A stretch of DNA of 64,000 nucleotides, taken from Diplonema papillatum. Lineage: Eukaryota > Euglenozoa > Diplonemea > Diplonemida > Diplonemidae. Made by a program: the position numbers and the translations under genes. Below the pieces are notes generated by a model. That model saw only the letters and a list, made by a program, of their open reading frames with translations, did not search any database and was not told where the DNA came from. The DNA lies in assembly GCA_030068145.1 (NCBI GenBank), contig JAPJBO010000266.1, positions 1 through 64,000 of the forward strand, given 5' to 3'. Of the stretch, positions 50,227 to 57,072 are shown piece by piece; the first letter of the stretch is position 1, and each line of letters opens with the position of its first letter.

Positions 50227-50740
50227 TTATTCGGCCCCTTCCCCCTCGCCGCCTCCAGGGCTGGTTTACCTACAAAGCAGTTGTGCGTGAGAAATTGGGT
50301 CATGGCCGCACGGGACAACACACCCCAGCGGTCGTACTTCGTATGTCAGGAAGGCACCACGTAAAAACGTGGTCCACGACACACATACCCACCACACACG
50401 CACACACAGGATAGACAAGTGATTCGCGCCACTTCCCCGTGCGAGCGAGTCTCGGAACACTTAGATATGTAGCCCAGGTGACCTCCGATGACTGCACTAG
50501 GAGTTTGGAACAGGTAGTCAAGCCAAGCTCATTGCACAGAAAGAGCATGCGACATCCTCCGTAGAGGATGCCAGGACCCAAAAGAAGCATGTCGAAAACT
50601 CAAACCCGACAGGTGACGTGAGCTAGCAAGCGGGCATACTTCGCTTCAGACGATACCCACTTCAAGTCATGAACGTTTACACTCACGCAGCTTATTTACT
50701 TCTTCGAAACCGTCTTCAACTCGAGATCACCGCCAGGCAT

Positions 50741-51068
50741 GGTTATGCACGTGTCTGCCGTTGCTCGGACACCTCAAGTCAGCTCTCTTCATCCGCGTCG
50801 CCCGTCCTGCTTACCAGAAGTGGCCCACTTCGAACCAGGATGCTACGTCAGGGTTCAAATGAAGTAACCCCTCTGCTCACGCCCATTAAAGTTTGAGAAC
50901 AGGTCGAGGAAGCGATTTCCCCAATGCCTCCAATCATTCGCTTGACCTGGCGTACCGCCTGTTTTGGTTCTAGCTAGGAGGGCAACTTCGGAGTGAACCA
51001 GCTACTAGAAGGTTCGATGGGTCTGTCGCCCCTAAACCCAGCTTTGACGAGCGATGCACGTCAACACA
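50741..51068 (-). rRNA. LSU rRNA fragment, about 330 bp
   Basis: Read on the minus strand in rRNA order: GACGTGCATCGCTCGTCAAA, GCTGGGTTTAGGGGCGACAG, TCTAGTAGCTGGTTCACTCC, GAAGTTGCCCTCC, then CCAGGTCAAGCGAATGATTG, CTCGACCTGTTCTCAAACTT, AAGTGGGCCACTTCTGGTAA and GCAGGACGGGCGACGCGGAT. This is a collinear piece of the central LSU rRNA. Small deletions and substitutions relative to the conserved core mark it as a relic. It lies about 0.5 kb upstream of NIPA gene 2, on the same strand. Confidence 0.92.
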
Positions 51069-54263: not shown

Positions 54264-54415
54264 TTGAACTTGCGCCGTGATAGGATTGATGGTTGCAATT
54301 ATTCTCCTTGCATGAGGAATGCCTAGTGGGCGCAAGTCATCAGGTTACGTGTACACACCGCCCGTCGTTGCTACCGATTGGCTGTGGGATAGAGCATGGG
54401 AGAGGGAAGCTCGTT
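54264..54415 (+). rRNA. SSU rRNA 3'-region relic with a hairpin deleted
   Basis: CGTGATAGGATTGATGGTTG, CAATTATTCTCCTTGCATGA, GGAATGCCTAGTGGGCGCAA, then GTCATCAG joined directly to GTTACGTGTACACACCGCCC and GTCGTTGCTACCGATTGGCT. About 20 bases that normally form the helix after GTCATCAG are missing. The following GGGATAGAGCATGGGAGAGG aligns with the relic at 26860-26968. Confidence 0.92.
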
Positions 54416-55810
54416 CTTGGCGACATTGCAGATTTTGAGTGTCTCCCCCAGCACCCACTATCAAGGACCACGTCAACTGTTCGCCAAGGAGCAAGAACGT
54501 GCTGTTGCTGTCATTCGCTTCTCCACTGATAGGAAAGAGGGTGGGGCATTCGATGCCAGGCATAAAACAGTTGATTGGAGGGTAGCACACGCTGGAAAAA
54601 AACAACGAACCCACAGCCCTCAGCGCGGAAAAGGTGTAGGAACGGGTGGAATGGGCAGCGGCCGTGCGGTTTGCGTGTGCCGGTTGATCGACAACTGCAA
54701 GAGCATCGAGCCACCCCCTGCGCGACATACGATGGATGAGCCCAAAAGCAGCTGCATTGCGGAGCTGACCCCCGCAGTCCCCTTAAGAAGTAGTGCGCGT
54801 CTCGGGGTAAGCAGCAAGCCGCCGATGCCAAAAGACACATCCTACACATAGATGGCCGGTTGATAACGTTATATAACGTTATATAACGTTATAACGGTGA
54901 TAACGTTATATAACGTTATATAACGTTATATAACGGTCGAAAACGCAAAATAACGGAAAAAATAACGCAAATAACGGTTTTTAGAATTTTTCCGATTTTG
55001 GCCATGTTTCCAGATTTTTGTCATTTTTTCCTCATTTTGGTCCATTTCGGCCATTTTTTCCGATTTTGGCCATTTTTGCCAGATTTTGGTCAATCTTAGC
55101 CAATTTTTCCAGACTTTTGCCGATTTTTTCAGGTTTTGGCCATTTTGCCGATTTTTTCCAGATTTCGGCAATCTTTGCCGATTTTTCCAGATTTCGGCCA
55201 TTTTTGCCGATTTTTCAAGATTTTGGACAATTTTGAGATTTTGGCCACTCTGGCCGATTTATCCAGATCAGTCAATTTCGGCCATTTTTTCCGATTTTTC
55301 CAGATTTCCCGATTTTCCAGATTTTGGTCAATTTCGGCCATTTTTGCCAATTTTTCCAGACTTTTGCCGATTTTTGGATCCCGGTCACAAAAACTGTTCG
55401 GAAACAAACCCTGGTCCGAAAAGAATTCGTAGTAACCGGTCCTCAGGGGTCCGTATAGCCCCTCCCCAGAGCTTTTTCTCTTTTACTTATTTTCTTGCGG
55501 ACTTCCACCCAAGCGCGACAAACGCGATCCTTCCGGATTCACATGACTCTTTCACTGTGCGATGTTGTTCTTGGGATGTGGATGTCTGCAGTTTTGGGTT
55601 TCCGGCGCGTGTCCCTCAGTCGGTGGCCCGTAACGGTCGTTTGCAGTGTCCTTCGTGAGGCAGCAGATGTCACCAGCATGATCCGGCCACTGGAGTCCAA
55701 CTTGTCCAAGCTTGTCCACTCGGCAGACCGTTGCGTACTATGCCAGTCAGACAAGGTCCCAGTACCAAATATGGGTGCATGATGAGCACGAGACATGCAA
55801 AGTCGAGCAG

Positions 55811-56161
55811 TCACAGCTGGCGCTTCCCGTAGAACCCAGCCAGCCCGGGGTCGGTTTTCTTGATCCGGTCGATGAATCGTTGTTCCGGGCTCTTACTTGG
55901 TGGTTTCGTGACAGGGAGAACGCTGGGGCCAGTCAATGCCAGGTCGCGGGACAAGGCCTCGACGCGCAGCGTTTCCGCCACCTTCTTCCTTCCGCGTCGC
56001 GCCTTTGCAACCGAGGCGCTGCTGCTGCTGCTGTTGCTATCCGTACTTTCGGCGCGAGGCCGTTTGCGCTGTGTACCTGGGGTCTTCGGCTGAGCTTTCG
56101 GCTGAGCTTTAGGTTGAACCTTCGGCTTCGGCTGGACCTTCGGGGAGCTTTTCGCAGGCAT
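55811..56161 (-). CDS. Basic Lys/Pro/Gln-repeat protein inside the mobile element
   Basis: 116 residues starting MPAKSSPKVQPKPKVQ. Residues 8-26 are PKxQPK-type repeats (PKVQPKPKVQPKAQPKAQPK), then a Ser-rich acidic patch (ESTDSNSSSSSASV), a basic patch (ARRGRKK, a possible nuclear signal) and a C-terminal 55 residues with PEQRFIDRIKKTDPGLAGFY. The repeats recall histone H1-like tails, but no DNA-binding fold is recognised. The upstream side carries GTGTTTCCGACGATC and TACAGATTGGTGTCT, motifs seen before host genes, so it may be a host gene captured by the element. A spliced N-terminal extension into the arrays cannot be excluded. No transposase signature, so its role in mobility is unknown. 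Confidence 0.55.
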   Translation of the reverse strand: MPAKSSPKVQPKPKVQPKAQPKAQPKTPGTQRKRPRAESTDSNSSSSSASVAKARRGRKKVAETLRVEALSRDLALTGPSVLPVTKPPSKSPEQRFIDRIKKTDPGLAGFYGKRQL

Positions 56162-56224
56162 AGTCGATATTCCCTTTGGAAAGACTAGTGTGGCTGAAAT
56201 CGAAGCGGGTGGGGCGGTACACGT

Positions 56225-56277
56225 GTTTTTGTGTTTCCGACGATCCCGAATGGGTGTACAGATTGGTGTCTTTCGAC
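56225..56277 (-). promoter_or_regulatory. Recurrent upstream motifs (element-borne gene)
   Basis: GTGTTTCCGACGATCCCGAA followed by GGGTGTACAGATTGGTGTCT, 70-110 bp upstream of the start codon at 56161. Both halves recur upstream of the RCC1-like gene. Confidence 0.35.
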
Positions 56278-57003
56278 CTTTTTTTTTTTCCGCGCACGGA
56301 CTGCCTGTTCGAGCTTGTGCGGGTTTAAGAAACTCAGACAAGAATAGCTCTGGTGAGGGGCAGGGCATAAATGACCAAAACCCTGGAAAAATCGGCAAAA
56401 ACGGCCAAAATGGGCAAAGTCTGGAAAACATGGCAAAACTGGCCAAAAATGACCAAAACCTGGAAAAATCGGCAAAAATAGCCAAATTTTTGAAAAACAT
56501 GGCAAAAATGGCCAATCCTGGCCAAATCGGTAAAAACGGCCAAAATGGGCCAAAATCTGGAAAACACGGCAAAACTGGTCAACATTGACCAAAATCTGGA
56601 AAAATTGGCAAAAATAACCAAAATTGGCCAAAATCTGGAAAATGTGGCAAAAATGGCCAAAAATGACCAAAATCTGGAGGACAGTGTGACCTCCCATGGA
56701 TTGGTAAAAAACCGTTATATAACGTTATATAACGTTATATAACGTTATTATAACGTTATATAACGTTATTATAACGTTATATAACGTTATTATACCGTTA
56801 TTATAACGTTATATAACGTTATATAACGTTATAACGGTCAAATAACGTTATTTTTCGCCCAAAAATGGCAAATAACGGTTTTATAACGGTCAATAACGGT
56901 TTTTCTGGATTTAGGGGGGGGGTAACAAATAACTCCGGGAATAACGTTATATAACGTTATATAACGGCCATCTATGCCTACAACGATTATTTTAAGGGTC
57001 TAG

Positions 57004-57072
57004 ATCTCGTTCGTTAACGAAATCAACCTGACAAATCACCAACCAGGAGCGGGGCCATGCACCACCACACTA
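57004..57072 (-). rRNA. SSU rRNA relic (central 3' domain)
   Basis: On the plus strand ATCTCGTTCGTTAACGAAAT, CAACCTGACAAATCACCAAC and CAGGAGCGGGGCCATGCACC then ACCAC, the inverse of the conserved SSU segment with GGTGCATGGCCGTTCTTAG and TTAACGAACGAGA. It lies 28 bp outside the right end of the 54847-56976 element. Confidence 0.88.

Follow-up and report, generated by a model that had tools for sequence, protein, structure and literature searches.

In the Ac/Ds system of maize, an autonomous hAT element is accompanied by internally deleted derivatives that are moved in trans, and the target site duplications (TSDs) are 8 bp long. Ds has terminal inverted repeats (TIRs) of 11 bp, and the Ac/Ds ends carry subterminal repeats (PMC3260210). 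For hAT elements, TIRs of 10-25 bp and autonomous lengths of 2.5-5 kb are given (PMC3942097), and the groups hAT5, hAT6 and hAT7 have been named for members with 5-7 bp TSDs (PMC12730594). The TSD of IS3EU is also 6 bp (PMC12730594). The BED domains of Hermes recognize subterminal repeats, arranged as a quasi-palindrome close to the tip, at the left end only (PMC10368747), and the Hermes substitutions E572A and E572C abolish every step (PMC2533014). Diplonemids are abundant, species-rich and genomically little-known marine protists, and the genome paper of Diplonema papillatum names TATE, MULE and Helitron elements (PMC10161547). Neither 'transposase' nor 'hat' occurs in the main text of that paper, and no report of a hAT element in diplonemids was present among the literature matches listed, of which one concerns Merlin and kinetoplastids.

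We analyzed a stretch of 64,000 nucleotides from contig C266 of D. papillatum (the window) together with the 271-Mb assembly of 2,910 contigs. The window harbors a 2,130-bp element at positions 54847-56976, which we assign with a probability of about 96% to the non-autonomous, internally deleted (Ds-like) members of a D. papillatum cut-and-paste hAT family with 6-bp TSDs. The element is Ds-like in that it shares its ends with a complete relative and has had the coding part removed by an internal deletion. As far as searched, this family is undescribed. It resembles Ac/Ds in its short TIRs, its subterminal repeats and the pairing of an autonomous element with internally deleted derivatives, whose movement in trans would be the counterpart here; it differs from Ac/Ds, compared by description, in the 6-bp TSD and the palindromic CGTTATATAACG arrays. 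The Repbase group hAT6 shares a hAT transposase and a 6-bp TSD, a likeness drawn from description. IS3EU, also set apart by description, is similar in TSD length only, whereas the transposase here has a hAT domain.

The first-pass annotation had described a CCTACA duplication on both sides, perfect 11-bp TIRs, palindrome arrays at both ends, a second repeat in mirror orientation and a central 116-codon frame. All of these features were recovered (Table 1) with a single correction: the inversion of the termini is perfect, and it extends over 12 bp (CATAGATGGCCG) rather than 11. The palindrome CGTTATATAACG occurs 14 times within the element and nowhere else in the window, and its genome-wide count is 3,294 versus 6 for the backwards-read control pattern. 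The second repeat is located on the inner side of each CGTTATATAACG array in inverted orientation and is contained in an imperfect inverted repeat with 74% identity over 476 alignment columns (element positions 13-457 against 1537-1989). Within the two arrays, seven of the 12 steps between CGTTATATAACG copies are 10 bp and two are 21 bp, corresponding to approximately one turn and two turns of the helix. A tandem unit of 10 bp accounts for the 10-bp steps, and the helical phasing of the arrays may matter. The earlier suggestion that a protein acting in trans could bind at many sites in the ends agrees with these arrays, which we regard as candidate sites.

Table 1. Features of the D. papillatum element and its flanks, in window coordinates.
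Feature	Position	Strand	Remarks
Target site duplication, left	54841..54846		CCTACA; single CCTACA at 4/4 fetched empty sites
Left terminal inverted repeat	54847..54858	+	CATAGATGGCCG, 12 bp perfect
Left array of 12-bp palindrome CGTTATATAACG	54867..54935		5 copies; steps 10, 27, 10, 10 bp
Left array of second repeat	54996..55332	+	TTTTGGCCA-like words, chosen by the authors; pairs with the right array within the inverted repeat of 74% identity
116-codon frame	55811..56161	-	First 111 codons of the hAT transposase, plus 5 (GKRQL) and stop from beyond the deletion
Internal deletion junction	55828..55831		4-bp microhomology CGTA; ~3.1 kb missing relative to L071/L072
Right array of second repeat, inverted orientation	56372..56672	-	
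Right array of CGTTATATAACG	56713..56966		9 copies; steps 10, 10, 21, 21, 32, 10, 128, 10 bp
Right terminal inverted repeat	56965..56976	-	12 bp perfect
Target site duplication, right	56977..56982		CCTACA

The longer autonomous-type relative that the first-pass annotation had proposed to look for is present in the genome. Locus L072 is a complete copy of 5,203 bp with the same ends (12-bp perfect TIRs), the TSD TCATTT and a single open transposase frame of 832 codons, or 794 aa when counted from the first ATG. The absence of a transposase, as originally noted, is thus correct for the window copy and incorrect for the family. A second long copy, L071, which is without the left end, is 99.7% identical to L072 over 4,929 columns. 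The window copy aligns with L072 on both sides of the deletion and has the layout of L072 minus ~3.1 kb, with CGTA present at both break points. On the basis of 93.7% identity in the right part and 85.3% in the left part, the window copy traces back to an older relative and not to L072 itself. A 23-mer across the junction was found at 149 places genome-wide (77 + 72; control 0), and because these places have a common junction, the subfamily of ~149 copies most likely goes back to a single deletion. A search with part of the family protein as query gave one match at E 0.001 among 5,766 candidates, DIPPA_27064 of D. papillatum (P0001), which is encoded at 100% over 454 aa by six genomic loci, four of them in 832-codon frames.

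The 116-codon frame had been taken for a cargo gene. By alignment with the complete copy, it is instead the truncated N terminus of the family's own transposase, consisting of the first 111 codons of the 794-aa protein cut by the ~3.1-kb deletion; with this N terminus residing in a complete copy that has the same ends, the cargo-gene reading is ruled out. An open frame of 112-116 codons ending in GKRQL was retained in 21 of 22 junction-bearing loci (the window and those among loci L031 onward, with L001-L030 omitted as overlapping the same elements), and comparison with the L072 transposase gave dN 0.044 and dS 0.098 over 116 codons, the last five of which are non-homologous. Both observations could be read as selection to keep the truncated protein because it represses its parent transposase, a KP-like mechanism that would explain the spread of the deletion form. 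We consider this improbable. The copies are so alike that the frame would persist regardless, and the substitution values, taken from so few codons, may mirror selection on the transposase ancestors and do not demonstrate selection after the deletion. Moreover, the fragment stops upstream of the zinc finger and the dimerization domain, the frame is missing from L062, and its middle reads differently in L037. The 116-aa product, which has neither zinc finger nor catalytic core, is most likely a by-product.

Another explanation is that the element belongs to a new superfamily with a captured cargo gene and is mobilized by an unknown protein, as would suit a window copy without transposase, a 116-aa frame in which Pfam detected no domain, and a database search of that frame whose only match was an 87-aa protein without an outside source. 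This is highly unlikely, given that a complete copy sharing these ends encodes a transposase whose N terminus is this frame, which refutes the cargo part, and that the full transposase carries a hAT domain. This domain, Dimer_Tnp_hAT (PF05699), was identified by Pfam at 7.4e-10 and scored 38.9 bits, above the threshold of 21.4. The proposal of a family outside the known kinds accordingly does not stand: the transposase is of hAT type, and hAT groups with 6-bp TSDs have already been named. An assignment to Mutator was also considered and rejected, with PF00872 at 0.1-0.18, under its cut-off. The TIR length of the window copy and L072 lies inside the 10-25 bp range of hAT elements, the length of L072 is slightly above the 2.5-5 kb quoted (PMC3942097), and the 6-bp TSD found in 30 of 40 end pairs fits the 5-7 bp hAT subgroups and not the canonical 8 bp.

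To place the protein further, a profile of four Diplonema lineages was compared with Hermes, its rows being L071, L073, L090 and L092 (the latter three 20-23% identical to L071) together with P0001, which is part of the L071 protein. The profile matched Hermes chains at 9.2e-11 to 4.4e-10, and the match was confined to the C-terminal dimerization domain, the remaining stretches scoring -3.9 to 1.5 bits with the upper value from the zinc-finger region. A putative N-terminal zinc finger was recognized by eye from a C-C-H-H pattern; Pfam called no zf-BED in the full transposase (L071), and zf-BED scored 0.14 in the relative L073. The residues C368, H371, R409 and W413, forming CxxH and R-W motifs, are invariant in the four lineages, and the CxxH aligned with Hermes only within a negative-scoring stretch. 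At the column of Hermes E572, a position that we counted along the 612-residue chain, all four lineages have aspartate in place of the Hermes glutamate, so that the residue is still acidic. Seven of eight C-terminal pieces added for this comparison (L093-L099) fall in the same four lineages, and the Asp/Glu site was not seen in the L100 frames examined. We do not hold glutamate at this position to be exclusive to hAT because DDD/E is written for a hAT triad in PMC11008031; the active-site variant is possibly new. The family is therefore similar to Hermes in the C-terminal domain and in having subterminal palindromic repeats, which in Hermes are bound by the zinc-finger domain (PMC10368747), and dissimilar in the aspartate, the 6-bp TSD, a zinc finger recognized only by eye and the presence of arrays at both ends, where the Hermes BED domain binds the left end alone (PMC10368747). 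A homolog search with the full 832-codon frame, whose length limit lay just above the 454 aa of P0001, scored 7,991 candidates and yielded no match at E 0.001, and AlphaFold on P0001 alone, with no alignment, gave an unusable model (mean pLDDT 39.3).

Dispersed copies and mobility, both expected from the first-pass annotation along with CCTACA-like 6-bp duplications and empty sites, are well supported by the genome. The TIR 11-mer occurs at 314 + 317 places versus 11 + 14 for the backwards-read control. Forty end pairs were sampled, comprising 38 from 100 listed of the 631 TIR places, the window, and L072, whose pair was found via its transposase; L070, a single end, was excluded. An exact 6-bp TSD was present in 30 of the 40, with 30 distinct sequences, and pairing left flanks with the right flanks of other elements gave 1 match in 1,560. 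Among the ten pairs without an exact 6-bp TSD, L039, L048 and L049 fit at a one-base offset, L060 has 7 bp, and L051, L054, L065, L066, L068 and L069 have no match of at least 6 bp, although L051 and L069 show a 5-bp flank match at a one-base offset. The TSDs are richer in A+T than the flanks (73% versus 54%; 25 copies), and that of L052 sits in an AT run. When the window flanks were joined at one CCTACA, they aligned across the junction, at 87%, with a minimum of 38 further sites (40 of 633 candidates scored, two of which were the window's own flanks), and the four sites fetched have a single CCTACA and no element. These empty sites are paralogous: they are copies of a dispersed repeat, and the element inserted into one member of it. 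Spread of the copies via segmental duplication, conceivable in an assembly of which 52% is repeats (PMC10161547), is refuted for the sampled copies by 30 different TSDs at 30 sites and by the empty sites, and we give it next to no credence.

The spread of these copies was also recent, because 16 other complete junction-bearing copies in the sample, 1.8-2.2 kb long, match the window copy at 99.42-99.95% identity over ungapped columns, with 10-485 gap columns. Shorter forms with the family's ends measure 0.4-1 kb, in addition to two of 99 bp (L051 and L065). The L065 copy (285-415) is built from two left-type ends with 16-bp exact reverse-complement arms, ATAAGCAGGTGCTTAT and ATAAGCACCTGCTTAT, a fold-back structure that a hairpin or a fused break could yield. 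On two contigs, two different family elements (L039 and L043) occupy the same position in a short repeat, AGAATCCACTTTGT, which may be the end of another element. Family copies with nested retrotransposon-like frames were found at L040/L041 and L037, the frame in L040 matching the reverse transcriptase RVT_1 at 8.4e-21 and that in L037 matching RT_RNaseH at 1.9e-5 with a sub-threshold RVT_1. At L010 and L030, GGCCATCTATG has the same outer flank and the same last ~dozen inner bases, AGGTCAAACGGCC, unlike the family ends; these sites represent either another family or a duplicated segment. Outside this assembly, the left-end 22-mer of the family had no exact match in viral_contigs, the right-end 22-mer had no exact match in genome_contigs, and L040:861-1994 had no near match in plasmids.

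The surroundings of the element were examined as well. The dispersed repeat that hosts it extends over window positions ~54773-57070, minus the element, and has at least 38 further copies at 87% identity. The stretch at ~54350-54370 (ACACACCGCCCGTCG) resembles, by eye, what we take to be the conserved 3' end of 18S rRNA, and Rfam at gathering thresholds called none there. A eukaryotic LSU rRNA fragment lies at 50714-50993 on the minus strand (RF02543, 88.9 bits), as is expected given the ~3,600 scattered 28S pieces reported for the D. papillatum genome (PMC10161547).

A second, more numerous hAT family accounts for ~37 of 74 genome matches, with many frames near 827 codons and a TIR of CATACTATGCAGTCCGCCGC; it is 24% identical to P0001. 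One of its members, L073, is a 3,870-bp copy with TIRs also starting CATA and with AATAAT on both sides, a pair that lies in an AT-rich, partly repeated flank. Six end pairs were fetched for relatives of L073 (L078-L089), and in five of the six at most one end was seen where it was expected (no end in C242 and one each in C581, C369, C472 and C107). In C1019 both ends are present, with the flanks GACATA and AATAAT and no duplication. For the second family, a 6-bp TSD is therefore given by the single pair of L073, against C1019 without one. We tentatively suggest, at somewhat below even odds, that diplonemids have a hAT clade of their own, characterized by 6-bp TSDs, an Asp-Asp-Asp rather than Asp-Asp-Glu site and helically phased arrays (10-bp steps) that would recruit the transposase at both ends. 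The odds are lowered because the TSD of the second family has one pair for it and one against.

For the element in the window, we propose that full-length copies supply the 794-aa transposase, which would recognize the terminal palindrome arrays via the putative N-terminal zinc finger, with the BED domains of Hermes as precedent, assemble on the TIRs and excise the element, which would then be inserted at staggered 6-bp cuts. Because the window copy has kept all end sequences, it would be movable in trans by the transposase of the full-length copies, as we infer from the shared ends together with the recent spread. The family thus represents a recently spread DNA transposon system of a diplonemid, with full-length copies carrying an open transposase frame and ~150 deletion derivatives. 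Finally, its palindrome arrays and aspartate substitution would make it possible to test directly how the transposase recognizes hAT ends and whether the third catalytic acid can vary.
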